Shown here one piece after another: positions 5,827-28,197 of a stretch of DNA of 33,221 nt. Made by a program: the position numbers and the translations under genes. Position 1 is the stretch's first letter. Each line of letters opens with the position of its first letter. Origin of the DNA: a virus; the IMG/VR virus record IMGVR_UViG_3300033149_004203, positions 1-33,221 of that record, one strand, 5' to 3'. The notes under the pieces are model-generated. The model was given only the letters and a program-made list of their open reading frames with translations, was not told the DNA's origin and ran no database searches.

Positions 5827-6619
5827 AGCCCAGCGCCTCCAGTTTCTGCATGGTGGTGGCCTGTTCAGCGCCGGCGATCTCCGCGCCCGTGGCCTCCAGC
5901 CAGGGGACCTCGAACAACTCGTCGTTGCGCCAGTTGCACTCGTGGCCGAACTTCCCGCCGTCCTCGCCCAGCATCTCGCCGTGGTCGCTGGTGACGACGA
6001 ACCGCTTGTCGGGCAGCGCGCCCGCCAGCATCCGCACGGCCTCCCAGACCAGGGACAGGTTCGCCAGGTATGCATCGCGCACTTCGGGCCACGTGAGCCG
6101 GCCAGCCTCCACCTCGTGGTCCGGACGCGCCAGCGCGTGGCAGCCTGAGATGAGGGGATGCTTGCCCCGGCCCCACCGACAGAGATTCAGCGGCACGGCG
6201 CCGATGTAGGGGCTGTGCGGCTGCAGGTAGTGCACGACGCAGCGGCAGCCGGCACTCGGCAGTGGGCAGCAGGCATCAACGGCTACGGCTGTCACGCTCA
6301 GCGGGTGGACGCTGGGGATCTGCAGATCGGTGAACCGGCCCCAGAGCTTGTCCCAGATCGGCTCGGTGCACAGCATCATCGACCGCGCCTGCACCGTGCG
6401 CTCCACTACGGGGTTGGCGCTGAAGTAGGTCACGTCCAGCCCGGCCAGGTGCGGCCCCACGCGGGAGATCCACGCCTCGGTGCACGGGGCGGGGGAACGG
6501 ACGGCCTCCACAGCCGGGGGCGGCTGTGCCACATTGCGGAACGCGTCGGCGCGGCAGGCGTCCAGGATTACCAGGACGTCCCAGTCGGTGTCTCTCAGCA
6601 GTGTGAGTTGCTCTCTCAT
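5819..6619 (-). CDS. Sulfatase / alkaline-phosphatase superfamily hydrolase-like protein
   Basis: A 266-residue protein with VLVILDACRADAF (15-27), where D20 is a metal ligand and C22-R23 lie near the usual nucleophile position, HYLQPHSPYIG (130-140), and VVTSDHGEMLGEDGGKFGHE (208-227) carrying the D212-H213 and H226 metal ligands. This layout matches short sulfatase-like proteins found beside glycosyltransferases in bacterial and archaeal surface-glycan clusters. The canonical sulfatase C-x-P-x-R is not present, so sulfate hydrolysis is not assured; transfer or removal of a phosphate-type group on a glycan is equally possible. Residues 31-38 (AQPPPAVE) and about 117-126 derive from interspersed repeats. 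Both ends overlap neighbours, so it is coupled to the cassette. Confidence 0.75.
   Translation of the reverse strand: MREQLTLLRDTDWDVLVILDACRADAFRNVAQPPPAVEAVRSPAPCTEAWISRVGPHLAGLDVTYFSANPVVERTVQARSMMLCTEPIWDKLWGRFTDLQIPSVHPLSVTAVAVDACCPLPSAGCRCVVHYLQPHSPYIGAVPLNLCRWGRGKHPLISGCHALARPDHEVEAGRLTWPEVRDAYLANLSLVWEAVRMLAGALPDKRFVVTSDHGEMLGEDGGKFGHECNWRNDELFEVPWLEATGAEIAGAEQATTMQKLEALGYV
6508..6534. repeat. Interspersed repeat, CACAGCCG...CTGTGCCAC type, copy 2
   Basis: CCACAGCCGGGGGCGGCTGT followed by GCCACAT, a near-perfect palindrome in frame in the sulfatase-like gene, encoding VAQPPPAV; copy 1 is at 832-856. Confidence 0.65.
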
Positions 6620-7559: not shown

Positions 7560-7588
7560 CTGTGTTCATCTGCGTCCATCTGCGGCTA
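7560..7588. repeat. CGCAGATGAACGCAGAT-type interspersed repeat, inverted copy
   Basis: TGTGTTCATCTGCGTCCATC followed by TGCGGCT, the reverse complement of the sequence type at 7303-7330. Confidence 0.65.
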
Positions 7589-8383
7589 CCCGTCGAGTCT
7601 CACATAGTCCCGCTTGCCGTTCGTCCACGTGCCGCTGTTGAACACGTCCACATGCTCCTCGCTCACGCGACGCATCCAGTAGTCCCACTGGTGGGTGTGG
7701 CCGAACACGGCGGTCTGACATCCCATCGCTCGCGCCCGCAGCGCCACCAGGGGCACGTAGCGTTCATTCCCGCCGTGCCGGCCCGTCCCGCCGATCCACC
7801 GCGCCAGCCGTTCACCCCAGAGGTCAACGTCCCGGTGGACGCGCCGTTCCAGCCAGCCCGCCACCCACGTGATCACGCGGGAGGTGCGGGGGAAGCGGCT
7901 GATGAGGGGATCGTGCGCGTGTCCGTGCTCGATCCACACGCACGGGGGCTGACGTGAGGGGACAGGACCCTTAGGCTGTTGGGGGTCCTGTCCGCTTCTC
8001 CCCGTGCGCGCGGGGACATGCGGAGGGGGACAGGACCCTGAACGGATCAGGGGCCCAGTCCCCAGCGCCACCCGAGCGTGAGGCAGCACGCGCACGCCCT
8101 GGATCGTGTGTCCCACCAGGTCCCAGTCGTGGTTCCCGGCGACGTAGACGTCCACCAGCTCGAACAGCGCCCGGATGACCGGCCCGTGCGCGGCGAGGAT
8201 CGATCTGTAGTCGGCCTGCCACAGATCGAACACGTCGCCGGCCAGCACAACGCGGTCGCCGTTGCGCTTCCACTGGTCGATCTTGTCCATCAGCTCCCAG
8301 TCGGCCAGGCCGTCAGCCGGCCCGAAGTCATCGGCCTTTGAGCCGTCTGAGAAGTGCAGGTCACTCAATGCGATCCTTGCCAT
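7586..8383 (-). CDS. Calcineurin-like metallophosphoesterase with two in-frame palindromic inserts
   Basis: A 265-residue protein with all the blocks of the metallophosphoesterase fold: LSDLHFSD (6-13; D8, H10), LAGDVFDLW (47-55; D50), VAGNHDWD (81-88; N84, H85), IEHGHAHD (151-158) and FGHTHQ (227-232). The order and the D-F-D-L spacing resemble LpxH-type or UDP-diacylglucosamine hydrolases, but phage members usually act on unknown phosphoesters. Residues 107-145 come from two tandem palindromic elements placed between the GNHD and HGH blocks, in a loop, so the active site may survive. The gene ends at the edge of an interspersed repeat. It sits between the lipoprotein and the giant glycosyltransferase. 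Confidence 0.83.
   Translation of the reverse strand: MARIALSDLHFSDGSKADDFGPADGLADWELMDKIDQWKRNGDRVVLAGDVFDLWQADYRSILAAHGPVIRALFELVDVYVAGNHDWDLVGHTIQGVRVLPHARVALGTGPLIRSGSCPPPHVPARTGRSGQDPQQPKGPVPSRQPPCVWIEHGHAHDPLISRFPRTSRVITWVAGWLERRVHRDVDLWGERLARWIGGTGRHGGNERYVPLVALRARAMGCQTAVFGHTHQWDYWMRRVSEEHVDVFNSGTWTNGKRDYVRLDG
7958..7994. repeat. Palindromic element P3 (in frame)
   Basis: A 37-bp copy with right end CCTGTCCGC (one base off consensus). It encodes GQDPQQPKGPVP in the metallophosphoesterase, a different reading frame from its neighbour P4. Confidence 0.88.
8026..8063. repeat. Palindromic element P4 (in frame)
   Basis: A 38-bp copy, 31 bp from P3, encoding GTGPLIRSGSCPP in the metallophosphoesterase. 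Confidence 0.9.
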
Positions 8384-8398: not shown

Positions 8399-8430
8399 GT
8401 AGTCAGCAGTCAGTGGTCAGCAGTGAGCCG
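8399..8430. repeat. GTCAGCA heptamer repeat
   Basis: GTAGTCAGCAGTCAGTGGTC and following bases; imperfect 7-bp units related to the arrays at 9277-9316 and 15920-15973. It overlaps the 3' end of the giant glycosyltransferase gene. Confidence 0.6.
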
Positions 8431-12035: not shown

Positions 12036-15000
12036 CTAATCCCATGAGAGGCTCATGCTCGCAGCACCGACGTCGCACGTGCTGTAGCCCGCGTCTGCGG
12101 TCCACGCCCCTGCCGCAGTCGGCGGGCAGCCGTTACCCAGGGGCGCGGCGGTGAACCGCACGCAGGTGTTCGCAGCGTGAATGTCCAGATACCACACGTT
12201 GTCAGAGCAGTAGAGATCGAACAGCACCAGGGCCTGCGTTGCATACCAGCGGCAATCAGTGCCGACGTCGCGCACCAGGGGCACGACCTGGTTTCCGCGC
12301 CAGCACTGGCCCTTCTTGAAGCCGCCGCAGGTGCCCGCAAGGTTCGTGACGGTGACGGTGACCGTGTTGTCATCGTCGCAGACGCTGCAGTCATCCGGGC
12401 ACGCGGGCGGCGCTTCCGTCGTGGTGCTCGTGGTGGGCGCGGCTGTGGTGGTCGGCGGGGGCGCGGCCGTCGTGGTGGTCGGGGCCGCCGTGGTGGTCGT
12501 AGTCACGCCGGGGCAGAGGGCCTGCGTCACTGTCACCGTGCCGCCGCCGTCGCCGGCGCAGCTATAGGCCCCCTCCGGATCGCAGAAGTCGAACGGATCG
12601 TCGTCCTTGGTCCAGACGGCCTCGCCCACCAGGATCATCCAGCCCATCGCCGGGTGATACGTCAGGTCGGCCAGGCCCATCCAGGGGAGGCCCGAGTAGA
12701 CGGTGCAACGGGCCCCCGTCGAATACGCGCAGCTCCAGTTGTCCGCACAGGCGTCGTTCCAGCAATGATCCAGCCGGAACTCCCCCACAACGGCGCACGC
12801 CTCCGCTGGCGCGGGGTAGCTCTCCCACCGGATCGCGCAGGCATCGCCCGGCGTGGTGCTGGTCGTGCCGCTCACCGGTGGAATGGACCCTGACAGCACC
12901 AGTTCGACAAACCAACTGCTGGCGTCGTCGTCCCAATACACCCTCAGGGTCGTGCCGTCCGCGAGGGTAGCGGCCCACTCGCACGGGCCCGTCTCCCGCA
13001 CGCAGTGCTCCCCGTTGTAGGGGGCGAAGTCCCGCTCCAGGTCCCTGAGGCTCACAATTATGATCTGCCGCATGGGATCGTAGCCGAGGGGGCCGCAAGC
13101 GGCGCCGTGGCAGTCCGAATCCTGCGCCTCCACCAGCCCCTGCCACAGGCACATGAACCCTTCCGGCTGGGACTCGCTTCTGCTCCATTCCACCAGGGCG
13201 GAAAGGCCGTCCCAATTGCCGTTCGCGCACGCGCCTCCTTCGCCGTCGCCGCACTCCCCGGCGAAGTCCAGCCGGTAACAATTCTCCCACAACGCCCGGC
13301 AGTCCTCGCACCACTCCGTCGTGGTGGATGTGGTGGGGCAGGAGGCGCCCGCGTCGCTCACCTCGCAGGTGGCGCCGATGCTGTCCTCGCAGCTCTCATG
13401 GTCGGCGCAGGTGTCGTCCAGGCAGTCAAGCTCCACATAGAAGGCGCTCTGCGGCGTGCAGCCGGGGATGTCTCCCTGTATCCATCTCTTGCGGCAGGAA
13501 GTGCCGCGAGTCACGTTCAGCGTCACGATCCAGCTCGCGCCCGAGTAGGCCAGCTCGATCCACGCATCCTCAAGCTCCAGCCGCCACAGGCAGTAGCTGA
13601 CGTAGGTCAGCGTGTGATCGCCGTTGTAGGGGGCGAGGTCGCCGGCCAGGCCGCACAGCGTCACGTGCAGCGTGTCCGGGATCGCCGGGTCGCAGGCGTT
13701 GCAGTCGCCCAAGGTAGTAGTGGTCGTCGTGGGCAGGGCTACCGTGGTAGTGGAGGGACACTCAACCTCAGCGACCACAACGATACCGTCGCCTCCCACG
13801 CTGCAGTTGTAGGTTCCTACTGGCCCCACGCCCTCGGCCTTTACCCACTTCGCTGCGAACCCGGTGGCGGTAAGCCCGTACACGACAAACCACTCGTTGT
13901 CTACTGGGTCGAACCCCAGCTTGAAAGCCCCCGTTCCGTTCTCCCAGAGGCACCAGTAACTTCCGGATTCCGGCCCGGACGCTCCGCTTACGACAACTGC
14001 GTCCATCGCCGTGTAGTCAGTGCCACCACACGAGTCCGTGAAATCAAGGCTGTAGCAGTTGCCCGTGTGGGGCCGGCAATCCTCCACTTCGTCGTCTTCC
14101 GACCCGCTGCCCGGCCCCACCTGGCAGTCGACGATGTCCTCGCTGAAGCCGAACTCCCTCTCGGCGAACAGGTTCAGGCGCAGCCGCTCCTTGATGGCGC
14201 TGTAGCCTTCCAGCATGAAGAACGTGTTGGCCAGCGTCAGCTCCACGGTGTTCAGTGAGAAATCCCACGTCACTTCCACGGCGTTCAGCGCCAGGCGGCC
14301 CCAGTCCAGGGGATCGGGCCAGCAGGCCTCGGTGGTGCTCGTGGTCGTGGGTGGCGCGGGGGTGCTGGTGGGCGGCGCCTCGGTTGTGAACGGCGCCAGG
14401 CGCGTGACGTTGTAGCGCCTCTGCAGCGTGAGGGAGGCGTCCACACCGTCGCACTCGATCCGCCCCTGCACGCGCACGTCCTTGAGCTGCTCAAGCAACC
14501 GCCCGGCGAGGATGCCCATCGCCGTCTCATCGTCCGGCTGACCCTCCTGGGGCCAGCTCGTGGTGTGCCTGTAGGCGGGGTCGAAGACCTTCAGGGTCCG
14601 CTGGTAGCCCAGGCACACGTAGGCATTGCCCGAAGGGCCGGCCGTCACGGTGAACGGCTGCCTCGCCCAATACCAGCCCCACAGCTTCTCGCCCGGATCC
14701 AGGTCGGCCGCCACGTCCCAGTAGAACATCACGATCCCGGTGCGCAGGTTCACCCGCCAGTTGAAGCCGCCCATCGGCGGGTTCACGATGCCCTTCGCGC
14801 CGGCGTCCGTGCCGCGGTAGATCCGCGCGCCGCTGTAGACGCCGCCCAGGCCGGCCGGGATGCCGCACTCGCATTCGTCCCGCCAGTTCTCGCACGACCC
14901 ACTGAAGCCCACGGGCTTCCAGGTCCACGGCCGGTAGGGCTGCTCTAAGGCGCGGTAGGCGCAGTCCCAGTCCTTCCACGGCTGGTTGACCAACTCCAGC

Positions 15001-15833
15001 TCACCCCCGCCGTTCAGCGCGGCGTTGGCGCACCCGTCCAGGTTCGCCGGCTTGACCTCCACCGTCCGGTCGGTGCCCTGCACCATCACCTCGGAGTAGA
15101 CGCCGTCCAGGCTCCAGTCCAGGCGGTTGTCCAGCAGCGAGTAGGCCGTGCCGCCGGCGTCCTGCCACTGGCCCAGTTCCCCCGCCTCGACGTCCGTCTC
15201 GGGCAGCGAGTTCAGGTTGTGCAGCCGCAGCACGCCGTAGGGGTCGATATACCAGCCGTAGAAGCCGCCGTTCATGCTGAGCAGCTCGGAGATCGCCACG
15301 GCAACGGGCGTGTTGTCCACACTGAACTCGCCGATCACGCTGTCCAGGGCGAGCCAGTCGGAGGCGTCGTATGAGAGGATGTCGTCAGTGGTCAAGTAGG
15401 TGTCTGTGACGCAGCCCGCGCAGGAATGGTGGCCGGGGATATCGCTGCCCGCATCCGGTAGGCCGAGGGCGTGCTCGAGGATGTCGATGATGATCTCGCC
15501 GGCCGTCCACTTGCCGCCGTCGCGGCCGGGGGAGTCCTCGCCGCTGCCGTGACTGCACAGGTGGCCTCGCGGGTTCCAGACGTAGACGCCCGAGCCGTTG
15601 ATGTTGACCGGCTCGTTCTCAAGTCTGAACCGCCGCCCCTGGGCGATGAAGTCGATCCCCTCGTCGGCCACGCCGCCTGGGGAGATCTGCACGATGTTGC
15701 CCCGGAAGATAAGCTGCCCCGAGTCGGCGTCGCGCACGTGGACCCAATCATTGACGCTGCACGGCTGCGGCTGCACGTCATGCCGACCCACGTAAGCCAG
15801 CTCACAGGCCCAGGGCGCAACGTAGGACTGCAC
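12036..15833 (-). CDS. Giant tail hub/adhesin with Cys-rich domains and mucin-like linkers
   Basis: A protein of at least 1265 residues. Residues 1-475 and about 505-570 resemble phage tail hub proteins (WVHVRDADSGQLIFRGNI; NGGFYGWYIDPYGVLRLHNL). After that come four Cys-rich segments (about 590-692, 712-830, 842-1105, 1146-1265) sharing patterns such as LAPYNGDH / FAPYNGEH, C-x-W, and CADHESCEDSIGA / CADNWSCAYSTGA. They are separated by Thr/Pro/Ala linkers at residues about 479-503, 693-712, 831-842, 987-998 and 1107-1145, the last reading TTTTTAAPTTTTAAPPPTTT. The first linker lies within the hub region. The layout suggests a tip protein with exposed disulfide-stabilised receptor-binding domains on O-glycosylatable stalks. 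The start is uncertain: GTG 15833 is used, but the frame stays open upstream (TDTTITIDAVART) into a heptamer repeat with no ATG. Confidence 0.75.
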   Translation of the reverse strand: MQSYVAPWACELAYVGRHDVQPQPCSVNDWVHVRDADSGQLIFRGNIVQISPGGVADEGIDFIAQGRRFRLENEPVNINGSGVYVWNPRGHLCSHGSGEDSPGRDGGKWTAGEIIIDILEHALGLPDAGSDIPGHHSCAGCVTDTYLTTDDILSYDASDWLALDSVIGEFSVDNTPVAVAISELLSMNGGFYGWYIDPYGVLRLHNLNSLPETDVEAGELGQWQDAGGTAYSLLDNRLDWSLDGVYSEVMVQGTDRTVEVKPANLDGCANAALNGGGELELVNQPWKDWDCAYRALEQPYRPWTWKPVGFSGSCENWRDECECGIPAGLGGVYSGARIYRGTDAGAKGIVNPPMGGFNWRVNLRTGIVMFYWDVAADLDPGEKLWGWYWARQPFTVTAGPSGNAYVCLGYQRTLKVFDPAYRHTTSWPQEGQPDDETAMGILAGRLLEQLKDVRVQGRIECDGVDASLTLQRRYNVTRLAPFTTEAPPTSTPAPPTTTSTTEACWPDPLDWGRLALNAVEVTWDFSLNTVELTLANTFFMLEGYSAIKERLRLNLFAEREFGFSEDIVDCQVGPGSGSEDDEVEDCRPHTGNCYSLDFTDSCGGTDYTAMDAVVVSGASGPESGSYWCLWENGTGAFKLGFDPVDNEWFVVYGLTATGFAAKWVKAEGVGPVGTYNCSVGGDGIVVVAEVECPSTTTVALPTTTTTTLGDCNACDPAIPDTLHVTLCGLAGDLAPYNGDHTLTYVSYCLWRLELEDAWIELAYSGASWIVTLNVTRGTSCRKRWIQGDIPGCTPQSAFYVELDCLDDTCADHESCEDSIGATCEVSDAGASCPTTSTTTEWCEDCRALWENCYRLDFAGECGDGEGGACANGNWDGLSALVEWSRSESQPEGFMCLWQGLVEAQDSDCHGAACGPLGYDPMRQIIIVSLRDLERDFAPYNGEHCVRETGPCEWAATLADGTTLRVYWDDDASSWFVELVLSGSIPPVSGTTSTTPGDACAIRWESYPAPAEACAVVGEFRLDHCWNDACADNWSCAYSTGARCTVYSGLPWMGLADLTYHPAMGWMILVGEAVWTKDDDPFDFCDPEGAYSCAGDGGGTVTVTQALCPGVTTTTTAAPTTTTAAPPPTTTAAPTTSTTTEAPPACPDDCSVCDDDNTVTVTVTNLAGTCGGFKKGQCWRGNQVVPLVRDVGTDCRWYATQALVLFDLYCSDNVWYLDIHAANTCVRFTAAPLGNGCPPTAAGAWTADAGYSTCDVGAASMSLSWD

Positions 15834-15919
15834 GATCCGCCGGACCGTGAGGTCCGTCCGCGCAACAGCGTCGATGGTTATCGTCGTGTCCGTCGCTTCG
15901 CTCCAGTGGTCAGGAGTTG

Positions 15920-15973
15920 GCAGTAAGCAGTGAGCAGTGAGCAGTGAGCAGTAAGCAGTGAGCAGTGAGCAGT
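15920..15973. repeat. GCAGTRA heptamer array
   Basis: Seven to eight tandem 7-bp units (CAGTAAG/CAGTGAG) directly upstream of the giant tail gene, the longest array of this family here. It may have displaced that gene's original start. Confidence 0.9.
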
Positions 15974-16012
15974 CGCCTACTCCGCCGAAGTAGCTTCGGC
16001 TACGAAGGCGGG
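15974..16012. repeat. Interspersed inverted repeat CTCCGCCGAAG...TACGAAGGCGG
   Basis: An imperfect hairpin (CCGCCGAAGTAGCTTCGGC and CTACGAAGGCGGG) directly after the heptamer array; a single copy in this window. Next to it, 16030-16052 holds GGGGTCAGGGGTTAG, another short-unit repeat. Confidence 0.6.
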
Positions 16013-16032
16013 AAGCGGTCAGCAGACAGCAG

Positions 16033-16341
16033 TTAGGGGTCAGGGGTTAGCATTGAGCACGTAGCAATCTGCCGTGAGTAGCATCCAGAAGGGAATCGCG
16101 AGTCATCAGAGGCTTCCAGGGCCGCCACGCACACGGCGGCCAGCTTCACCACGGCGCGGTACCACGGCTTCTCGTCCCGATTGTTGAGTGCGCTGTCGGC
16201 CGCGCAGCCAAGTTCATGGGTGAAGATCGCCACCCACTCCTTGGGGCTGTGATCCCTGTCATGCTCGAAGGTCCAGCCCTTCTGATGGATCTGATACTGC
16301 CGCTCGTCGTGTATCACCGCCATTACTTCTTTCCGAGTCAT
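16033..16341 (-). CDS. Small MazG-like helical phage protein
   Basis: A 102-residue protein starting at ATG 16341 with GAGGAG about 5 nt upstream. The pattern VIHDERQYQIHQKGW, then PKEWVAIFTHELG and WYRAVVKLAAVCVAALEA is that of a widespread small phage protein related to all-alpha NTP pyrophosphohydrolases (MazG-like), which start with an ERxRQ-type helix, have an EExGE-type metal site and end with an ElvqvAAVaxaxiE-type helix. Here the metal site is degenerate (HELG), so nucleotide hydrolysis is doubtful. The last 20 residues run into interspersed repeat DNA (ending LTPDP), suggesting that the original C-terminus was replaced. It sits between two tail genes, an unusual place for this family. 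Confidence 0.55.
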   Translation of the reverse strand: MTRKEVMAVIHDERQYQIHQKGWTFEHDRDHSPKEWVAIFTHELGCAADSALNNRDEKPWYRAVVKLAAVCVAALEASDDSRFPSGCYSRQIATCSMLTPDP

Positions 16342-16357
16342 CTTGGCTCCTCTCTCC

Positions 16358-16385
16358 GTTCTCTGTGTCCTCTGTGCCTCTGTGG
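16358..16385. repeat. CACAGAGGCACAGAGG-type interspersed repeat
   Basis: TTCTCTGTGTCCTCTGTGCC followed by TCTGTGGT, overlapping the gap between the MazG-like gene and the distal tail gene. I have seen this sequence type repeated in other environmental bacterial genomes; only one copy is here. Confidence 0.5.
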
Positions 16386-16389
16386 TGAA

Positions 16390-17247
16390 TCACGGCGTTG
16401 TTGTCGTGGTGGTCGTCGGCGCCGCCGTGGTCGTCGTGCCGCTCCATGCACCCGCGCCGCCCGCCGACAGGTCCTTGACGAAGCTGAACTGCACCATCGT
16501 GAACTTCCGGTCCGTATGACTCGGCCGCATCCGCTCCAGCAGAACGTCGGTGAACGTGTTCCCATTAGCCGTCAGGTTGACCAACCCGGAGATCGACCGG
16601 GCCAGGTCCTCCAGGTCGGTGGCCAGGCTCTCCGTGCCGGCCACGCGGGCGGCGTCAATGATGAAGCGGATCACAGCGCGGGCCTGCGGCACGGTCGCCC
16701 GCGCGCCGCGCGCCCTGGGGATCTCCCGCAGCGGATAGTCGCGGGACATCTCGATCCGCATCCGCCCGCCCACGCCGAGCGTGACGCCGCCGGCCGCGTA
16801 GTCCTGAAGCGTGTCCGTGCCGGCGTAGACGCCGGGCGCGGCCGGCGCGCCGACCCAGGCCGGCTCGGCCGACTTCTCGGGGCAGGCGAAGTCCAGGCGC
16901 ATGTCGGCAAACTCGCATGCTTCCACCACGCCGCTTCCACCCACGCAGACGGCGTCGCCGAACACGTGCCGGTGTCCCCGGTTGTCCTCGTAGGCCAGGT
17001 TGCCGGGGCCGCTGTCGGACAGGGCCAGGAGCTGCTCGTAGATATATCGTTCGGCGTCGCCCAGGTTGGTGCGGACGCGCTGTGCGGTGACCTCCAACTC
17101 CAGGATCCCGCCGCCGGAGTCCAGCACAGCGGCCGGCGCGGAGTGCGGGTCGAGCGTAACGATCCGACGCCGGGCCGAGGGCGAGGCGAACACGTGCTCC
17201 CCCAGCTCGATGTCGACCGTCCCGTCGTTGAAGTAACCCACAGCCAT
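16390..17247 (-). CDS. Distal tail protein-like, with mucin-like C-terminus
   Basis: A 285-residue protein directly after the tape measure gene (8-bp gap) and before the hub gene, the position of the distal tail protein in siphovirus-type modules. It is rich in predicted beta strand (MAVGYFNDGTVDIELGEHVF; RMRIEMSRDYPLREIP). No named family motif is certain to me, so the role rests on position. The last 17 residues are GTTTTAAPTTTTTTTP, with Thr codons mixed (ACG, ACC, ACA), so it is not a simple recent expansion of one codon. This tail is of the same kind as in the decoration, capsid and tube proteins. Confidence 0.65.
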   Translation of the reverse strand: MAVGYFNDGTVDIELGEHVFASPSARRRIVTLDPHSAPAAVLDSGGGILELEVTAQRVRTNLGDAERYIYEQLLALSDSGPGNLAYEDNRGHRHVFGDAVCVGGSGVVEACEFADMRLDFACPEKSAEPAWVGAPAAPGVYAGTDTLQDYAAGGVTLGVGGRMRIEMSRDYPLREIPRARGARATVPQARAVIRFIIDAARVAGTESLATDLEDLARSISGLVNLTANGNTFTDVLLERMRPSHTDRKFTMVQFSFVKDLSAGGAGAWSGTTTTAAPTTTTTTTP

Positions 17248-17255
17248 GAGAACCC

Positions 17256-19430
17256 TTATCGTGCTCGCGCAGTGCCGATGTTCTTGAGTTTGTTCCCGTG
17301 CCGGCGCAGGGTGTCGCCCATCTCTTTCTGCTTCTCGTCCAGGCGCTCGAACGCGTCCTCGGCCTTGTCCAAATACGCGTCCAGGTAGAGCTGCAACTGG
17401 TCGGCCTCGGCGACCAAGCGCTCGGCGTCCTCGATGTAGCCGGCCGCGCGCGCGTAGCCGGCCGTCTTCCGCTTCTTGGCGATCTGGGCGGCGCGGCCCT
17501 TGTACCCTGGAGTCTGACGCAGGGCCGCCTGGCGCTCGGCGGCGACGTCTGCCGGCGACTTCACCGGGAACGTCTCGCGGATGACCCGGCCGGCCTTCTG
17601 CCAGACGCCCCCCAATTCGGCCTTCAATGGTCGCTCCTTCTCCGCAGCGTCCAGCCTCCTGTTGAGTGCATCGATCTCGGCGTTGAGGTCCGCGATTCGG
17701 CCGGCTGAATCACTCGCGTTCTCGCCGGCCTTGTGCGCCGCCGTCGCCATGTCGCTCATGCCGTCAGCCGCAGCCTTGAACGCCTTGACCTGTTCCCCTT
17801 CTGCTATGGACACGAACTCGGAGGCCGGGGTCGCCCCAACAAGCCGGATCATCTCCTCGTTTGATGTGAACGGCGCCCTCGCCCTGAGGCCCTTCGGATA
17901 GTCCCAGATCGCGGTCTGTTGATTGGGATCACGGAGCTGGCGAAGCAGCGCCTGCTTGTCCCGCTCCCCGACTTGATTCGCCATCCTGTTGAAGACGCCG
18001 CTCAGCTTGTTGAACACGTCGCGAGTGGTCTCCATCGCGCGCTGGCCGATGGCGCCCCACAGCCCCTCGAGGATCTTCAGGGCTTCCAGCTTCAGCCGCT
18101 CGAGACCGCCCAGGATCTTCTCGCTGACCGGCCCCATCACCCAGCCTTCCGCCGTCTTCTCCGCGAACAGCTTTCCGATATCGGGGATCACCTCATCCCA
18201 CATCCGCTGGGGGAAGGACAGCATGCCCTTCCACGCCGCCGCCCAGTCGGTATCGATCAGATTGCGAACGAACCTATCCACCGCGTCCGCCGCAGCCTCG
18301 CTCCCGGCCATGATGGCCCGCCACGCGCCGGTGTCCTTCAGACTGAGCAGCCAGCCGTTCATGTCCTTCAAGGCATTGTTGAAGCGCTCATACCAGGGGC
18401 CAGACAGCTCCATGCGGAGGTCCTGGATCACGCCGACGAAGGTCGACCACGGCCCGCTGCCGACCTCGGCCGCCTGCCGGGCCATGTTAGCGAAGCGGCT
18501 GCGGATCACCTTCGCGATGCCGCGCAACGCCTCATCCGGCGTGCCCATGAACTGGCCGGCCTTGCTGAACGTCAGGCCCGCCGCCTCCAGTTCCGGCCGG
18601 GAGATCGTCATCTCGCGCAGCCGCTCGAAGGCCTCGCCGAAGCTCCCCGAGCGGACCCGCGCGAAGACCCGAGCCACGTCCTCCAGCCGGATGCCCAGAC
18701 CCTTGGTGGCGGCGGCCAGGTCCAGCACGTCGCCGATATACTTCTTCACCTCCACCCGCGCAGCGCCCAGCGTGGTGACCGTGCGCAATACTTCCATCGG
18801 CGTGAAGGGCGTTGCCAGGGATAGCGTGCGCGCGAGCTTCTCCATCTCGGCCGCCAGGGGGCCGAACGTCTTCTGCATGACCGCCCGGATGTCCGCAAGC
18901 TGCATGTTCTCGCGGATGCCCTTTATCATCTGCCAGCCGAGCACGGCCCCGACCGCGAGCCCAATGCCGGCCGCCACCTTGACCAGCTTGCCGAGGATGC
19001 GGCCCGCCACAGCCACCATCCGCGTGAATATCCGGGCGGCTGCGGCGACCAGCTTGCCCAGGGCGTTGACGATCCCGCCCACCACGTTGGCCGCAATGCC
19101 GACGAGGCCCTGGAGGATGTTCGCTCCGGTGGAGACCACGCCGCCGAGGATGCCCCCGATGCCGGGGATCAACTTGGCGAATCCGGCCAGGATGCGGACC
19201 GGCGCCATCGCCAGGCCGGTCGCGCCCTGCACCAGGCCGGAAAGGATCCCGCCCGCGCCGCCCGGCCGGAACCTGCCGCCGATGCCGGCGAAGCCTGCGC
19301 CGAGGCCGGCGCTGCGTGTCATGCCCTGGACGGACCGCGTGAAGCCACGGGCGAACCGGCGCAGCCCGCGCATCGCTGCGCGCCCGTCGAAGAACGCCTT
19401 CAGGCTGAACGCCATGTCTCGGTCAGGCAT
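17256..19430 (-). CDS. Tail tape measure protein
   Basis: A 724-residue protein that sets tail length and passes through the tube during infection. Residues 1-50 are basic; 50-170 are Gly/Ala/Val-rich and hydrophobic (GIGGILGGVVSTGANILQGL), predicted to insert in the host membrane; 175-330 form the conserved tape-measure domain (LSLATPFTPMEVLRTVTTLG; DLAAATKGLG). Residues about 565-600 (IADLNAEIDALNRRLDAAEK) and 660-720 are coiled coil. Its size suggests a modest tail of perhaps 100 nm by the usual rule of about 1.5 angstrom per residue. The start ATG 19430 has a GGAGT site. It follows the frameshifted chaperone gene, as in lambda-like phages. Confidence 0.88.
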   Translation of the reverse strand: MPDRDMAFSLKAFFDGRAAMRGLRRFARGFTRSVQGMTRSAGLGAGFAGIGGRFRPGGAGGILSGLVQGATGLAMAPVRILAGFAKLIPGIGGILGGVVSTGANILQGLVGIAANVVGGIVNALGKLVAAAARIFTRMVAVAGRILGKLVKVAAGIGLAVGAVLGWQMIKGIRENMQLADIRAVMQKTFGPLAAEMEKLARTLSLATPFTPMEVLRTVTTLGAARVEVKKYIGDVLDLAAATKGLGIRLEDVARVFARVRSGSFGEAFERLREMTISRPELEAAGLTFSKAGQFMGTPDEALRGIAKVIRSRFANMARQAAEVGSGPWSTFVGVIQDLRMELSGPWYERFNNALKDMNGWLLSLKDTGAWRAIMAGSEAAADAVDRFVRNLIDTDWAAAWKGMLSFPQRMWDEVIPDIGKLFAEKTAEGWVMGPVSEKILGGLERLKLEALKILEGLWGAIGQRAMETTRDVFNKLSGVFNRMANQVGERDKQALLRQLRDPNQQTAIWDYPKGLRARAPFTSNEEMIRLVGATPASEFVSIAEGEQVKAFKAAADGMSDMATAAHKAGENASDSAGRIADLNAEIDALNRRLDAAEKERPLKAELGGVWQKAGRVIRETFPVKSPADVAAERQAALRQTPGYKGRAAQIAKKRKTAGYARAAGYIEDAERLVAEADQLQLYLDAYLDKAEDAFERLDEKQKEMGDTLRRHGNKLKNIGTARAR

Positions 19431-19461
19431 ACGTCACTCCAGTGCGTCAGGTGTCAGTGAA

Positions 19462-19551
19462 GGGGACAGGATCAAGGGGGACAGGACCCTTAAAGGCGTT
19501 AGGGGTCCTGTCCCCTTACAGCGTCCTGTCCCCTTACGCCGTCCTGTCCCC
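19462..19551. repeat. Palindromic element P13 in a compound array
   Basis: The core copy is 19477-19515. On the left is GGGGACAGGATC (from 19462); on the right are two half copies, GCGTCCTGTCCCC (19521-19533) and CCGTCCTGTCCCC (to 19551), each preceded by TTAC. It lies between the tape measure start and the chaperone gene and forms the 3' end of the frameshifted product. Confidence 0.88.
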
Positions 19552-20226
19552 TTTCCGCGTCCAGCGCCTCCCTCAGCGCGACCGCGATCGTGTATGGTTC
19601 GCCGAGCTGGTCGGCCACGAAGCACAGGGCGGGCCGAAGTTCCGGCCGCACCGGTTGGCCCCATTTCGCCCATCGGTATAGCTCCAGCAGTTCGCAGGAG
19701 GCCGAGCCGCTCAGGCCGGCTTCGACCTCCGAAGTGAGTTTTTTGCCAACCACATGCTGCCGATCAGGACCGCGCCGATCACGGACAGCGGCAGGCCCTT
19801 CAGTATCTCCATGCGGTCGGCGACCGGCAGGGTGGCGTTCGGCACGGGCAGCGTCATGCCAGGGAAGTAGAGTGCCTGGAGCCCGGGGACGTTCCATTCG
19901 TGGAGGCAGCAGGCGAACACCTCGTCAATGAGATCCCACAGTTGCTGCTGGCCTTCCTCGCCCAGCGTCTCTTCGAGTATCTCCACGACCTGGGCGGGAT
20001 CGCCGTCGGAGCGCCCAGCCCCCAGGCGGAGTAGCTTGGCGAAGTGCCCGCGCAGGAAGGTGACGGCCTTCTGTGCGACGCCGGCGGGGGCCACGCGCAG
20101 TGTGAGGGTGTCGCTGTCCAGGGTGATTGTCGCCCGGTAGGCGTCGTCTCGCTCGATCCAGTCGATGGAATCGAGGAAGTCGTTCAGCCCCTGCTCGGCA
20201 ACGGTATCGGCGGAAGATTCGTCCAT
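19499..20226 (-). CDS. Tail assembly chaperone, -1 frameshift extended form (gpGT-like)
   Basis: Predicted 242-residue product made when about one ribosome in many slips back by one base at 19738-19744. Residues 1-163 are shared with the short form; then the -1 frame adds 79 residues beginning LTSEVEAGL and containing LELYRWAKWGQPVRPELR and FVADQLGEPYTIAVALREAL, which looks like a real helical domain. In lambda and many siphoviruses the G and GT proteins hold the tape measure for tube assembly, and the GT extension binds the tube protein. The last 18 residues (GQDGVRGQDAVRGQDP) and the stop codon come from palindromic elements, so the natural C-terminus has been replaced. Position directly before the tape measure gene fits. 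Confidence 0.75.
19711..20226 (-). CDS. Tail assembly chaperone, unshifted form (gpG-like)
   Basis: A 171-residue protein between the tube gene and the tape measure gene, with an acidic helical domain at residues 1-110 (IDWIERDDAYRATITLDSDT; VVEILEETLGEEGQQQLWDL), typical in size for gpG-like chaperones. Residues 141-160 (ILKGLPLSVIGAVLIGSMWL) are hydrophobic, which is unusual for this family. After the slippery codons A161-K162-N163 the zero frame runs only eight more residues to the stop. The start ATG 20226 is preceded by AGGAGG-like sequence. The family call rests on position, size and the frameshift, not on a named motif. Confidence 0.7.
   Translation of the reverse strand: MDESSADTVAEQGLNDFLDSIDWIERDDAYRATITLDSDTLTLRVAPAGVAQKAVTFLRGHFAKLLRLGAGRSDGDPAQVVEILEETLGEEGQQQLWDLIDEVFACCLHEWNVPGLQALYFPGMTLPVPNATLPVADRMEILKGLPLSVIGAVLIGSMWLAKNSLRRSKPA
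19738..19744 (-). promoter_or_regulatory. Programmed -1 ribosomal frameshift site A_AAA_AAC
   Basis: On the minus strand the sequence reads GC-A AAA AAC-TC, with the heptamer phased exactly as X XXY YYZ relative to the chaperone start at 20226 (codons 161-163). Slipping leads into an 80-codon open frame encoding a plausible domain. Confidence 0.8.
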
Positions 20227-20347
20227 CTCTCAGTCCTCCTGGCTCCAAGAGGAGGATGTATGCCGGGGGGCCGTTGGAGCCGGCCCCGTTCAGGGCGCGG
20301 CCCCCCGGCGGGGCGAACCCGTCCATTGGCGGATTCGCCTTACGCTC
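20227..20347. other. Gap between tube and chaperone genes
   Basis: A 121-bp stretch with a strong GC-rich inverted repeat near 20262-20318 and the chaperone ribosome site (AGGAGG) at its left end. An ATG at 20326 (minus strand) opens MDGFAPPGGRALNGAGSNG and then PPAYILLLEPGG, which looks like a remnant of a short tail peptide, but the frame has no stop before the chaperone gene. I do not call it a gene. Confidence 0.35.
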
Positions 20348-21382
20348 CTACGGCGCGGCCGTGGTGGTCGTCGTCGTCGCAGCGGCGGTTGTGGTGAACG
20401 GCGCAAAGGTTGTGGTGCCTCCGGTTGCGAGGTCCACGTCGTAAACGATGTCCTGACCCTCGTAGTCCTGGCCCTCCGGCGCCTCCAGCGCCCGCATCCG
20501 GGGGCTCTCCTTGGCCTGCTGGCTCGGCGTGCCGTCGTTGTCGGACTCCTCGACGGCGAGCCACGGCAGGAAGATGGCCATGTAGTGGCCGGCCGGGTGC
20601 CAGAACTCCGCAGAGAACGTCATGTGAGCGCCGTCCCGCACGGCCGCGTCGAAGTCGTCCGAGTTGTGCAACTCGGTCAGGTCAAGGGTGATCTGCCGCT
20701 TGTTGCCGTGCGTGAAGGCGATCGCGCTCACGCCGGCGGCCTGCCGCGTGAGCGGGCCGCGCCCGACGTTGTTCGTGACGTTGATCGCCCACCGCTCCAC
20801 GTCCGTGATGAGGATGGTGTTGACCCGCAGCTCGGCGTGCCCGTGCATAAACGGGACGACCTCTAAGGCGTCGTAGGCCGCCTCGAACGTAGCTTCCGAC
20901 AGACTGTCCTCCTTGGCCTCGTCGCGGGCGATGAGCCCGAGCGCCACCTGGATCTCCCCGTCCCCCTCGCCCGTCCCCTCGATCCGCAGCGTGTCGGCCA
21001 CGACGCCCGTGTAGCGGCGCGGATCCTCGGGGTTGTATTCGTCCATCACGTGCTGGTAGATGTCCTGGTAGTCGTCGCCGACGGTGGCGACGCGCGCCAG
21101 GGCCATGTCCAGCAGGAACTGGGCGCTGCCTGGATAGAGGAGCGTCCGGAACTCGCCCTCCACCGTGAGGCGGTGGTGGATGGCGACACGCTCCCGGAAG
21201 CCACCGATCTCCGTGTCAGGCACATAGCGGGGGGCGCTCGCCTTCAGCCCCTGCCCGTCGCCGAGGCGTGGGATGTAGACCCAGGCCGGCGCGCCGGGCA
21301 CCGTGCCGTAAGCCGAGTGCGCGGCCACCCGGCAGAACCTCTGCATGCGGCGCCACCCGCCGTGGCTTCTTACTCCTGGCAT
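20348..21382 (-). CDS. Tail tube protein with mucin-like C-terminus
   Basis: A 344-residue protein, start ATG 21382 with GGAGGAAGG upstream. It sits directly before the chaperone/tape measure pair, where the major tail tube protein lies in siphoviruses. Sequence supports a beta-rich fold (EFRTLLYPGSAQFLLDMALA; LRVNTILITDVERWAINVTN; KRQITLDLTELHNSDDF) with an internal repeat of two similar beta halves, as in tube proteins built from a duplicated fold. The last 25 residues are GGTTTFAPFTTTAAATTTTT and on to AAP, a mucin-like tail; if this is the tube subunit, such a tail would decorate the outside of the tube in hundreds of copies. Confidence 0.75.
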   Translation of the reverse strand: MPGVRSHGGWRRMQRFCRVAAHSAYGTVPGAPAWVYIPRLGDGQGLKASAPRYVPDTEIGGFRERVAIHHRLTVEGEFRTLLYPGSAQFLLDMALARVATVGDDYQDIYQHVMDEYNPEDPRRYTGVVADTLRIEGTGEGDGEIQVALGLIARDEAKEDSLSEATFEAAYDALEVVPFMHGHAELRVNTILITDVERWAINVTNNVGRGPLTRQAAGVSAIAFTHGNKRQITLDLTELHNSDDFDAAVRDGAHMTFSAEFWHPAGHYMAIFLPWLAVEESDNDGTPSQQAKESPRMRALEAPEGQDYEGQDIVYDVDLATGGTTTFAPFTTTAAATTTTTTAAP

Positions 21383-21395
21383 TGTCCTTCCTCCT

Positions 21396-21854
21396 CTAAG
21401 CGAATCTGCGGCGTATCCATCTCAGGCCAACGGTCACCGTGGCCTGCCACATCAGCCATTTCTCTTCCTCATTGCGCCAGGCCTGCATCGCCACGGTCGG
21501 CACGATGTTCGCCAGGCCGTCGCCCGACAGGCCGAGCATGTCGGCCCGAGCCAGCCGGCAGCGATCCAGCGTCAGCGCCACCAGGTTCTCGCACGGCTCC
21601 GGATCGTCCCCCTCCGTGGTGATCTGAATCGCGATGCGCTGCTCGATGTCGTAGGCGATCTCCTTGCGCAGTTCCGGCTCGACGATCGGGCCGGGATACA
21701 GCGCGTAGACCGGGCAGTCAGCCGGCACTATCTCGTATGGCTGCAGCAGGCCTCCCTTGAACGCGTACCACTTCTTGACGAGGGGGTTGATCGCCGCGTC
21801 CGCCTCGATGGCGGTGCGCAGCGCGACGCGGCCGTCCGTGAGGAAGTTAGCCAC
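21396..21854 (-). CDS. Tail terminator / head-tail joining protein
   Basis: A 152-residue protein. GTG at 21854 is preferred because GGGAGG lies 9 nt upstream; the TTG at 21860 has only a 3-nt spacing. The layout (VALRTAIEADAAINPLVKKW at the start, IAIQITTEGDDPEPCENLVA in the middle, then TVTVGLRWI at the end) fits the small alpha-beta tail terminators of siphoviruses, which cap the tube and join it to the head. The pattern of a short N-terminal helix followed by strands and a paired C-terminal strand is consistent. It lies between the virion morphogenesis protein and the tube protein, the expected place. I do not recognise a named family. Confidence 0.55.
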   Translation of the reverse strand: MANFLTDGRVALRTAIEADAAINPLVKKWYAFKGGLLQPYEIVPADCPVYALYPGPIVEPELRKEIAYDIEQRIAIQITTEGDDPEPCENLVALTLDRCRLARADMLGLSGDGLANIVPTVAMQAWRNEEEKWLMWQATVTVGLRWIRRRFA

Positions 21855-22452
21855 GGCCAAATGCCTCCCTGTCGAATTGGCGTTCGAGCGCCTCGCCGAG
21901 ATATTCCTCGTCGGAGTCGGTGATGCCCAGCCACGGGCGCGGCTCGATAGTCACCGCCGTGCGCAGCGCAAAGAGCGGCACGACGGAATCGCCCGAGCCG
22001 GCGATGGCCAGGATCCCGACGTCCTCCGGCTCCGACCCCGGCCCGGCCGGCACGCGGAAGATGCCGGCGAAGTCGCGCGCCCTCTTGCCCCGCGCCCTCG
22101 GGCTGATCGGGATGGTGAGGGCCTTCGCGTTCTTCGGCCGGATCGGCCCGCCCAGCGCTTCTTGTGTGCCGCGATGCAGGACCTCGCCATGCGTCAGGGG
22201 CGTGCCGATCTCCACGCCCTCGCCATTCGGCAGAACGTTGAAGGTGACACTGCCGGCCAGGCCGCGTCCGCCCCGATGCGTGGCCGGGACCTCTCCGGGC
22301 GCGCTGGCCTCGCCCTGGCGCTGGAACGAGTCCTTGATCCGGCGCACCACGTGCCCGCCGAAATCGCGGGCGACGGGTGTCAGATCCTTCACGGCGCGGA
22401 CGAGACGCTTGATGCGCTTCTCGAACTGCCGAAGATCAGCTTCCAGCCTCAC
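21847..22452 (-). CDS. Phage virion morphogenesis / tail completion-like protein
   Basis: A 201-residue protein starting at GTG 22452. The N-terminal helix (LEADLRQFEKRIKRLVRAVK), the basic middle part with VVRRIKDSFQRQGEA, and EVLHRGTQEALGGPIRPKNA (about residues 90-110) resemble the Mu G / P2 S family of morphogenesis proteins, where a His/Gly-rich segment is followed by an R-P loop. These proteins act at the head-tail junction in phage assembly. The protein is somewhat longer than the usual 130-170 residues. The stop overlaps the next start region by 8 bp. Confidence 0.6.
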   Translation of the reverse strand: MRLEADLRQFEKRIKRLVRAVKDLTPVARDFGGHVVRRIKDSFQRQGEASAPGEVPATHRGGRGLAGSVTFNVLPNGEGVEIGTPLTHGEVLHRGTQEALGGPIRPKNAKALTIPISPRARGKRARDFAGIFRVPAGPGSEPEDVGILAIAGSGDSVVPLFALRTAVTIEPRPWLGITDSDEEYLGEALERQFDREAFGRG

Positions 22453-22458
22453 GGTATA

Positions 22459-22550
22459 GACACCCTTCGAATAGACACAGATTCACACTGATCAAACTGA
22501 TCAAACCATAACAATGGACTTGTCTGTTGCCGTATCAGTGTCGATCAGTG
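22459..22550. repeat. CACTGATCAAACTGATCA-type interspersed repeat region
   Basis: Between the morphogenesis and gp36-like genes: ACACAGATTCACACTGATCA on the left and GTATCAGTGTCGATCAGTGT on the right, in opposite orientation, a form of the AC(A)CAGAT repeats seen elsewhere in the window. No gene is visible in these 92 bp. Confidence 0.5.
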
Positions 22551-22555
22551 TCCTG

Positions 22556-22981
22556 TTAGAGCGGTTCGTCGCGTCCGAAGACGCGGTCCTTCACGCTGTG
22601 TCTCACCCCGCCGGCGCCGGCGCTCTCGCTGGGTTTCGGCAGGATGCCAAGTCCCGCCTTGCCGGCGACGATGTCCTTGAGCCAGGCGATGCAGGCCTTG
22701 TAGTTGTCCTTGATGTCCTCGCTGAGCGCCCGCCGCCCCTTGTAGAGGAAGTAACAGGCCATCGTCACGGCCTTCTGCTGGAGCACTTTCGGCACGGGCG
22801 CGGGGATCGGCACGACGTAGACCTTGCCCAGGTAGGAGTCGATCTCTCCCTCGGCGTCCTCGATGGCCTGGCTGACCACGGCCGCGTCGGCCGTCCCGTC
22901 CTCGTCGTGGTCCGCCAGGCGCACCAGGTCGGCGGGCGAGATCCGCCGCTCGATGTCGGCCAGCGCGATGTAATTCCCCAT
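22556..22981 (-). CDS. Head-tail adaptor protein, Mu gp36 family (DUF1320)
   Basis: A 141-residue protein. MGNYIALADIERRISPADLV, SQAIEDAEGEIDSYLGKVYVV and LQQKAVTMACYFLYKGRR match the gp36/DUF1320 family of Mu-like phages: a short N-terminal helix, a helix with acidic residues, a Y-Lys loop and a long basic helix. Typical members are 130-145 residues, so the length fits. These proteins connect the portal to the tail in Mu-like virions. It lies directly after the major capsid gene, as in Mu, separated by a palindromic element. Confidence 0.85.
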   Translation of the reverse strand: MGNYIALADIERRISPADLVRLADHDEDGTADAAVVSQAIEDAEGEIDSYLGKVYVVPIPAPVPKVLQQKAVTMACYFLYKGRRALSEDIKDNYKACIAWLKDIVAGKAGLGILPKPSESAGAGGVRHSVKDRVFGRDEPL

Positions 22982-23022
22982 CGCTCGCCTCGCGTTATCG
23001 GAAGGGCGACAGAACCCTGTAG

Positions 23023-23060
23023 GGGGACAGGACCCTTAAGGCGTTAGGGGTCCTGTCCCC
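23023..23060. repeat. Palindromic element P14 (intergenic)
   Basis: A 38-bp copy between the major capsid and gp36-like genes. The sequence GGGCGACAGAACCCTGTA to its left looks like a decayed half copy. The right end is followed by TTCTCA rather than TTAC. Confidence 0.9.
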
Positions 23061-23091
23061 TTCTCACGTGGGCTCATGGCCCTGTTGTGGT

Positions 23092-24024
23092 TTATCCTCC
23101 TGCCGTTGTGGTGGTCTCGCCCTCAGCGCCCCACTGCGAAGCCTCAATGAGGTGCGGGAGCACGATGGCGCGGCCATAACGCCGGGCCGTCTTGAACTCG
23201 TAGATCTCCTGGTAGAACACGTTGGCGTCGCTCGGATCGGTCTTTGCGGTGAGGGCCGGGGCATCGCGGTTCTGCACGATGATCGGCTTCTCGTCGCTCG
23301 TGTCCACGAGGAACCAGTAGTTGGCAGAGGCGCCGGTCAGCGCGCCCCAGACCACAATCTTGACAGCCTCGTCCCGGTCGGGGTTGGTGACTCCCGGCGC
23401 GCTGTTTTCCGCGCGCAGGATGGCCTTCGCGACCGTCTCATTGCTCGGGCCGCAGATGAGGTGCGTGGGCCTCAGTTCCAGCGCTTGGCCATCCGGGCCC
23501 GGGCGCGTCCGAAGCTTCAGCCGGGCCGCGCGATAGTTGACGACGTTCAGCGGCCCGTTCGTGATGTTGCTCCAACCCGCCCCGCCAGGCCATTGGTGGT
23601 TGGCCGAAAAGACGTTTGCGCCGTCCGGCCCCCAGGGCGTCGCGAACCCGTTGATGAAGAGCTGCGGCAGCCGGCGATAGGGGTGCGTGGCGGCCAGCCG
23701 CCCGAACCGCTGCATCGCGAGATTGTAGACGCCCATGTCCTCATCCTCGATGTTGCCCCGAGGAACCCTGAGGATCCTGCCGAAGAACCGGTTCGGGATC
23801 TCCTGGACGAACTTGCCGAGATCCAGCGTCGTGTACTGATCGAGCAACTCCTCGAGATCGCCCAGCAGGGCGCCCGTCGGATACTCCTCCTTGGACTTCG
23901 AGGACGGGACTTCGACAACGAAGTCCACCACATCCTCAGGAAGCTTCGCTTCCTTGACTGCGGCCAGCAACAGGGCTTTGAAGCCCGTGAAGAGCCGCAC
24001 CAGATTACCTTGCGTGATGTCCAT
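23092..24024 (-). CDS. Major capsid protein, Mu gpT-like
   Basis: A 310-residue protein with ATG 24024 behind a strong AGGAGG. The first 120 residues are helical and acidic, then come FINGFATPWGPDGANVFSAN, NVVNYRAARLKLRTRPGPDG, LRPTHLICGPSNETVAKAIL and FLVDTSDEKPIIVQNRDAPA, the arrangement of the gpT-type HK97-fold capsids of Mu-like phages. It lies after the protease/scaffold and decoration-type genes, as in Mu. The C-terminus ends ETTTTAGG, a short version of the Thr tails seen on neighbouring virion proteins. The protein should form the icosahedral shell (several hundred copies), so a surface-exposed tail would be highly multivalent. Confidence 0.87.
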   Translation of the reverse strand: MDITQGNLVRLFTGFKALLLAAVKEAKLPEDVVDFVVEVPSSKSKEEYPTGALLGDLEELLDQYTTLDLGKFVQEIPNRFFGRILRVPRGNIEDEDMGVYNLAMQRFGRLAATHPYRRLPQLFINGFATPWGPDGANVFSANHQWPGGAGWSNITNGPLNVVNYRAARLKLRTRPGPDGQALELRPTHLICGPSNETVAKAILRAENSAPGVTNPDRDEAVKIVVWGALTGASANYWFLVDTSDEKPIIVQNRDAPALTAKTDPSDANVFYQEIYEFKTARRYGRAIVLPHLIEASQWGAEGETTTTAGG

Positions 24025-24057
24025 CTCTTCGCATCCTCCTGTAGTTGGCGTTCCAAG

Positions 24058-24096
24058 GGGGACAGGCCCCCTAATGGCGTTAGGGGTCCTGTCCCC
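24058..24096. repeat. Palindromic element P15 (intergenic)
   Basis: A 39-bp copy between the decoration-type and major capsid genes; left end GGGGACAGGCCCC, right end GGGGTCCTGTCCCC, followed by TTAC. Confidence 0.92.
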
Positions 24097-24107
24097 TTAC
24101 GGGGTCG

Positions 24108-24674
24108 CTACGCCTGCGCCGTCGTCGTGGTTGTGGTCGGCGCCGCGGTGGTCGTGCCGAGCAGCCACTCATACGGCGTGCCGCCGAACTCGATCTCGAC
24201 CTCATTCGACCCGATGTCCGTTTCCGGATGGGCAGCGAGTGTCGTGCCCGGCAGGCGCATGATCTGCCCGCACCAGATGTCGTTCGTCACGTCCTCGCGG
24301 CAGACGGCAACGGTCTGATCGTCGGCGATATAGACCTTCGCGAAGAGCATGTTCTGCAGCGGGGTCCGGTCCGCCAGGTAGAACCTGACGCGCCCCTTAT
24401 AGAGCACGATGACTTCCTTGGCGCCGGCGTCGCCGCCGTAGTTGTCATACTTGCTGTTCGGGTGCGTGGCCGTGGGATCCTGCGGGTCCGCCATCGCGAG
24501 ACCGGCGAACTTGTGGCCGGCGGTGTCGGACGCAGGGACCGCATAGCCGTCGCTGTCGACGTTCACCAGCCCGCCGACGAAGATGATGGCGTCGGCTGCC
24601 ATCGGGATCCGCAGAAGATCGCCCGACCGCACGCGCATGGTGACCGTGCTTCGCGCTACTGTGAGAGCTGTCAT
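24108..24674 (-). CDS. Capsid decoration-type protein with mucin-like C-terminus
   Basis: A 188-residue protein, ATG 24674 with GGAGGAG upstream. AIIFVGGLVNVDSDGYAVPA and HKFAGLAMADPQD are the pattern of DUF2190-like or gpD-like capsid decoration proteins, a small beta-barrel with a G-x-L-V-N-V start and a G-L-A strand. The following domain (EVIVLYKGRVRFYLADRTPL; LFAKVYIADDQTV) continues the beta fold. Its C-terminus is LLGTTTAAPTTTTTTAQA, a mucin-like tail whose Thr codons are mixed. Its position between the protease and the capsid gene matches Mu gp33. If it is a decoration protein, the tail would project from the capsid surface. Confidence 0.75.
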   Translation of the reverse strand: MTALTVARSTVTMRVRSGDLLRIPMAADAIIFVGGLVNVDSDGYAVPASDTAGHKFAGLAMADPQDPTATHPNSKYDNYGGDAGAKEVIVLYKGRVRFYLADRTPLQNMLFAKVYIADDQTVAVCREDVTNDIWCGQIMRLPGTTLAAHPETDIGSNEVEIEFGGTPYEWLLGTTTAAPTTTTTTAQA

Positions 24675-28141: not shown

Positions 28142-28197
28142 GGGACAGGGCTCCGTAAGGGGACAGGGACCTTAAGGCCTTTAGGGTCCCAGTCCCC
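28142..28197. repeat. Palindromic element P18, nested with degraded flanks (intergenic)
   Basis: The core copy is 28159-28197 (GGGGACAGGGACC...GGTCCCAGTCCCC). GGGACAGGGCTCC to its left and TTTGTCCCT to its right look like halves of an older copy. It lies between the large terminase and portal genes. Confidence 0.87.

Follow-up and report, generated by a model that had tools for sequence, protein, structure and literature searches.

Threonine-rich, mucin-like tails on phage virion proteins adjoin a cassette with a GT27-like glycosyltransferase

The phages described here carry mucin-like, threonine-rich tails and linkers on exposed virion proteins beside a conserved cassette of sugar-attaching enzymes, one of which, GT_G, is GT27-like in sequence and fold, and from this we conclude that these viruses probably decorate their own particles with sugars. 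On the genes and models at hand, glycosylation of virion proteins by the phages themselves is the best overall explanation and a likely one, and the interpretation of a virion O-glycosylation system given in a preliminary description of this DNA is supported. The window, by which we mean the whole 33.2-kb stretch that was analyzed, is one entire contig within a 5.55-Mb metagenome-assembled genome (the host assembly).

In the right part of the window, the minus strand encodes Mu-like gpT head, cement, tail tube, and tape-measure genes, followed by the glycosyltransferase cassette, which runs as far as the contig end (Table 1). Family matches identified the gpT capsid, the tube, and gp36 (PF07030), the tape-measure protein was also recognized, and the match of the cement protein was weak (PF22758/phrog_1731). 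We scored a Thr tract as at least 6 Thr per 12 residues and found four genes with such a tract, versus 0.26 per round after each protein had been shuffled. The scored tracts span 24120-24155 in the cement gene, 20360-20425 in the tube gene, 16396-16437 in the distal gene, and 14331-14369, 13713-13751, and 12417-12503 in the hub gene. The preliminary description had claimed Thr tails on five virion proteins; those of the cement, tube, distal, and hub proteins held up, whereas that of the capsid, being TTTT only, is weak. All five of the linkers that it had counted in the hub were located, three of them as threshold tracts and two as shorter linkers.

The tract-coding pattern occurred three times in the 5.55-Mb assembly, every time inside the window, and a reversed-pattern control occurred zero times. 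Thus, the Thr tracts are not a host habit, and a compositional quirk of the host was ruled out as their origin. The Thr codons within the tracts are mixed, as had been noticed at the outset; across the lineage described below, 143 of 444 adjacent pairs (32%) were identical versus 37% expected, which gives no sign of codon slippage and ruled this out as the origin of the tracts. Tandem expansion does occur in some relatives, as PPPTTTTTEA repeats in L330 and as poly-Thr in G509.

Table 1. Virion genes, threonine tracts, and cassette genes in the window
Feature	Position	Strand	Remarks
GT_A, GT2	214..1167	-	PF00535 2.8e-20; best solved relative SunS
SprT-like metallopeptidase	1158..1571	-	PF10263 below cut-off; G493 cassette has one too
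GT_B, GT2	1568..2470	-	PF00535; bait for relatives
GT_C, GT2, paralogue of GT_B	2460..3230	-	PF00535
GT_D, putative GT-A glycosyltransferase	3227..3898	-	No Pfam match; cross-matches in L328
GT_E, putative GT-A glycosyltransferase	3877..4548	-	No Pfam match; cross-matches in L328
Methyltransf_24 SAM methyltransferase	4548..5114	-	PF13578 1.5e-16
GT_F, putative GT-A glycosyltransferase	5104..5811	-	Sub-threshold PF00535/PF01501; conserved in cassette
Alkaline-phosphatase-superfamily enzyme	5819..6619	-	Invariant Thr47; fold nearest phosphoethanolamine transferases
Metallophosphoesterase-like protein	7586..8383	-	Weak NCBIfam match
GT_G, three-part protein	8410..11028	-	Domain 1, middle alpha/beta domain, C-terminal GT2-like domain
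Tail hub/adhesin, five Thr/Pro/Ala linkers separating Cys-rich segments	12036..15833	-	
Hub linkers reaching the Thr tract threshold	14331-14387, 13713-13751, 12417-12503	-	
Hub linkers, two shorter	13314-13334, 12849-12866	-	
Distal tail protein, C-terminal Thr tail	16393..16437	-	Gene 16390-17247; without family match, named by position
Tail tube protein, C-terminal Thr/Ala/Pro tail	20351..20425	-	Gene 20348-21382; PF18906
gpT major capsid, minimal Thr tail TTTTAGG	23095..23115	-	Gene 23092-24024; PF10124
Cement/decoration protein, C-terminal Thr tail TTTAAPTTTTTTAQA	24111..24155	-	Gene 24108-24674

Domain 1 of GT_G (about residues 1-410) is a GT27-like glycosyltransferase. When solved structures were searched by hmmsearch with a nine-sequence profile of this domain, the best 12 matches were all GALNT enzymes (GALNT2, E 3.8e-13), with chondroitin synthase behind them at 3e-8. 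In Foldseek, run from an AlphaFold model (mean pLDDT 78), the best 18 matches of domain 1 were GALNTs, and VIA-align placed 29 GALNT entries first, with Z of 22.8-26.6 over 280-290 residues and others at 20.5 or below. By profile and predicted fold, the closest solved relatives of domain 1 are therefore the GT27 polypeptide GalNAc-transferases, in keeping with the resemblance that the preliminary description had proposed from a DxH motif. This motif is invariant in the nine domain 1 sequences and aligns with D-S-H of GALNT2; His227 (L378 numbering), a candidate for the third metal-binding His that GT27 enzymes have toward the end of the catalytic domain, is also invariant, in an HxFR or HxYR context, and the HMM alignments to GALNT2 end before it. 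GT27 enzymes carry a C-terminal ricin-like lectin domain (PMC4202792). We found none in GT_G, in which Pfam finds GT2 domains only, and a sequence search of solved structures with just the C-terminal half of domain 1 gave no GALNT or other significant match; for these reasons we call GT_G GT27-like rather than a GT27 member. Its C-terminal GT domain likewise had no significant sequence match among solved structures.

A tblastn search of 50,697 phage records returned no match to GT_G, an enzyme that current annotation pipelines are therefore likely to overlook. Cultured phages also yielded no tblastn match to GT_B, the tube protein, a relative's GT_B, or the stand-alone enzyme of L385 (see below), and we found nothing on point in the literature on Thr-rich phage tails or on phage or bacterial GT27 enzymes.

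We also observed a dispersed, REP/MITE-like hairpin repeat of ~56 nt (AAGGGGACAGG...CCTGTCCCC) in at least 15 copies in the window (e.g., 26772-26827, 28142-28197, 10349-10423, and 10865-10939), which lie between genes and in frame within GT_G domain 1; the relatives are without that insert. Short tandem repeats are present at window positions 15909-15978 (GCAGTGAGCAGTGA) and 9216-9258 (GCGGATTGCGGATT, encoding NPQSAIRNPQS), and the relative L379 has a different inserted repeat in its glycosyltransferases, encoding SSLTPQA/SSLKPHA.

The seven downstream glycosyltransferase proteins that had been read from the window comprise four with GT2 (PF00535) at or above the Pfam cut-off and three, GT_D, GT_E, and GT_F, that are GT-A-like, mutually related, and without a family match above cut-off. 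The accompanying methyltransferase was confirmed by its family match (Table 1). For the enzyme at 5819-6619, described earlier as sulfatase-like, the alkaline-phosphatase superfamily stood but the sulfatase label did not: the Pfam 'Sulfatase' match is weak, and the S1 formylglycine motif C/S-x-P-x-R is absent, the aligned residues being (C/N)T-x-x-W. Within its family, D20, T47, D212, H213, and H226 are invariant, Thr47 occupies the nucleophile position, and Cys is not invariant. Foldseek ranked MCR-1, EptA, and EptC best, at TM-scores of only about 0.5, with sulfatases close behind. Judged by sequence and model, the protein thus looks closer to Thr-nucleophile phosphoethanolamine transferases; like MCR/EptA it has a Thr where the nucleophile is expected, but unlike them it is short, soluble, and without a membrane domain. 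A phospho-substituent on the putative glycan is possible. We found no homologue of the metallophosphoesterase-like protein in the lineage cassettes. By hydropathy, all cassette proteins lack predicted membrane segments, which argues against work on a lipid-linked surface polysaccharide.

To collect relatives, we used GT_B as a bait, chosen blind to Thr content, and obtained three IMG/VR contigs at 49%-59% identity. These carry much of the cassette in the window's order (GT_G, the phosphatase-fold enzyme, then GT_A/B/C); one additionally has GT_F, the methyltransferase, GT_E, and GT_D, and the hubs of all three carry Thr/Pro/Ala linkers. Once we had also scanned with alignments of GT_G, hub-N, and terminase, the set comprised 17 distinct contigs, all from a single lineage, in which the terminase is ~57%-67% identical where present and the gene order agrees with the window.

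The C terminus of the cement protein is Thr-rich in 17 of 17 lineage contigs, and the tail varies in length and sequence (e.g., EPTTTTAAPTTTTTTAAA, EPTTTTLAPTTTTTAAG, SPATTTTTAA, and EPTTTTAGA). In the cement proteins, Thr accounts for 47% of the final 14 residues versus 7% elsewhere; the corresponding shares are 30% for the tube and 29% for the distal proteins, compared with 1%-8% in terminase, portal, protease, gp36, gpT, and neighbors. No Thr tails were found in the terminase, portal, protease, or glycosyltransferases of the lineage. Tube tails are frequent (TTT close to the C terminus in 11 of 15 tubes), distal tails are patchy (kept in G498, G500, G491, G502, and G505), and both are absent from several relatives that retain the cassette. 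Capsid tails are rare, and TTTTAGG is mostly not conserved. Thr linkers occur in 11 of 13 hub fragments and differ greatly, the extreme being long TTTTEAP repeats. The tails and linkers thus preserve their composition but not their sequence, which would suit either an acceptor with multiple sites or a disordered spacer.

Two observations concern individual relatives. Four of them (L333, L346, L364, and L366) have only ~300 bp between the tube and distal genes, an interval that in the window holds the tape-measure gene and two further genes; they may therefore have a very different (short) tail, and nonetheless keep tube, distal, hub, and cassette. In L330, an extra protein of the cassette region (L330:4307-5749) consists of a globular domain followed by ~12 PPPTTTTTEA repeats and may be another putative glycosylation acceptor.

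GT_G lies directly downstream of the hub in 8 of the 8 lineage contigs that run past the hub, three of which (G501, G502, and G509) came from hub or terminase baits, without a GT bait. Outside the lineage, the cement homologues of ~27 outgroup gpT prophages from the host genome's phylum have no Thr tail, nor do those of two prophages in other genomes (L296 and L297); these tailless homologues rule out that the tails are an ancient trait of gpT phages. Two gpT/terminase-related viral contigs of 38-41 kb contained no GT2 at all. The co-occurrence of tails and cassette anticipated for related phages was thus found within the lineage, and the outgroup side agreed. As both traits are shared by descent, this co-occurrence amounts to close to one event.

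A more distant case is the G220 prophage, from another genome of the host's class, whose tube, distal, and hub proteins are 24%-32% identical to those of the window. The C-terminal part of its hub contains long Ser/Gly/Thr repeats, and behind it follow a single-domain GT27-like protein (motifs DAHMR and HLFRSARPY), a GT_B-like enzyme, and a methyltransferase. With this GT27-like protein as a single sequence, GALNT2 was best among solved structures. The arrangement shows that the cassette moves together with the tail hub and its hydroxyl-rich linkers, be they of Thr or of Ser. At L385 (G220:C72), very long (SG)n, (TG)n, and AAPTGTG hub repeats stand beside the stand-alone GT27-like enzyme.

We then surveyed IMG/VR more widely, comparing 100 contigs with TTTAAPTTTT tracts to 50 with Gly/Ser linkers and 50 random contigs. 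GT2 was above cut-off in 19/100, 3/50, and 1/50, respectively, and the difference between Thr-tract contigs and controls (19/100 versus 4/100) gave p ~0.01 in a length-stratified permutation. For contigs up to 60 kb the enrichment falls to p ~0.07, and we therefore regard it as supportive, not decisive. Most Thr-tract contigs are without GT2, and no GT_G-like enzyme was found in their sampled loci. TTTAAPTTTT tracts are common among IMG/VR viral proteins (at least 120 stretches, L002-L121); in 34 of 112 closed reading frames the tract is C-terminal, several of these in recurrent small proteins, and this seems to be a more general phenomenon, as yet unexplained.

That phage enzymes can glycosylate virions is already known from mycobacteriophages: phage-encoded glycosylation at the C termini of capsid and tail tube proteins has been described for Che8, Corndog, and Myrna (PMC12363180, PMC12619734). 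The window's cassette is like these in supplying phage-encoded glycosyltransferases. The putative system of the window differs in that the conserved tail is on cement, mucin-like linkers occur in the hub, a GT27-like enzyme takes the lead, and a phosphoethanolamine-transferase-like enzyme is included. The virion glycosyltransferases of mycobacteriophages are cytoplasmic enzymes. New here is that a GT27-like enzyme is paired with mucin-like putative acceptors, which are carried by the cement and hub proteins. With eukaryotic GT27 and mucin-type O-glycosylation the window shares the fold and profile of domain 1, the DxH motif, and Thr/Pro/Ala-rich putative acceptors; unlike its eukaryotic counterparts, domain 1 is fused to middle and GT2-like domains, with no ricin lectin domain found, and, as part of a phage product, is expected to act in the cytoplasm. 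GT_A, searched as a comparison, is most like SunS, the GT2 peptide S-glycosyltransferase of the SPbeta prophage; the similarity is low and spans about 100 residues. The target of SunS is a cysteine in a bacteriocin.

Could the enzymes serve another target? Genes of the O-antigen-conversion type are often carried by phages, and GT_A and GT_G have weak PHROG matches to GtrB-like proteins, as would suit a cassette that alters the host surface polysaccharide (O-antigen conversion or superinfection exclusion) next to Thr tracts that are unrelated flexible linkers. We consider this quite improbable: besides the missing membrane segments, no flippase-like partner was seen, the cassette keeps its place immediately after the hub gene in the lineage and in the distant prophage, and domain 1 is closest to protein-modifying enzymes. 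Glycosylation of hypermodified phage DNA by the cassette is very improbable. Phage glycosyltransferases can modify DNA, according to work cited in an excerpt of PMC12619734, and a PHROG match of the methyltransferase is labeled DNA methyltransferase; but that enzyme was assigned to the Methyltransf_24/TylF type, no gene for hydroxymethyl-base synthesis was recognized in the part of the genome seen, and the cassette belongs to the operon for virion morphogenesis.

The tracts might instead be unmodified disordered spacers or adhesive tails, with glycosyltransferases that act elsewhere and co-occur by shared descent only. The wide distribution of TTTAAPTTTT in IMG/VR, mostly on contigs without GT2, fits such spacers. 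Against them, GT2 is enriched in Thr-tract contigs, the hydroxyl-rich composition persists despite changing length and sequence, G220 swaps to Ser/Gly/Thr yet keeps the cassette, and the adjacent enzyme is GT27-like. We hold unmodified spacers to be unlikely.

For glycosylation of the phages' own virions, we propose that the GT27-like domain of GT_G, a late-operon product made in the cytoplasm, would initiate a glycan on Thr or Ser within disordered, hydroxyl-rich segments, namely the Thr tails of the cement, tube, and distal proteins and the Thr or Ser linkers of the hub. The remaining glycosyltransferases would lengthen this glycan, and the methyltransferase and the phosphoethanolamine-transferase-like enzyme would modify it. 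The tails as acceptors, the order of these steps, the identity of the sugar, and the purpose (shielding, stability, or adhesion) are what we infer. GalNAc-T2 has been employed with Gne in the bacterial cytoplasm for glycoengineering (PMC13345888), so cytoplasmic action is chemically feasible. A stricter version, in which this phage lineage performs true mucin-type O-glycosylation and the GT27-like enzyme starts GalNAc or another HexNAc on the decoration, tube, and hub tails to give a mucin-like coat, we put forward tentatively as a possibility on the doubtful side; were it to hold, the polypeptide GalNAc-transferase fold would have a prokaryotic branch, or a source, in these phages.

If the phages do glycosylate their virions, the locus would supply phage coat glycosylation with a specific acceptor sequence and a specific initiating enzyme. 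Mucin-like decoration would reach as far as phages that infect uncultured bacteria, for which protection from antibodies is not a likely purpose, and the question would arise of how the GalNAc-transferase folds of eukaryotes and phages are related.
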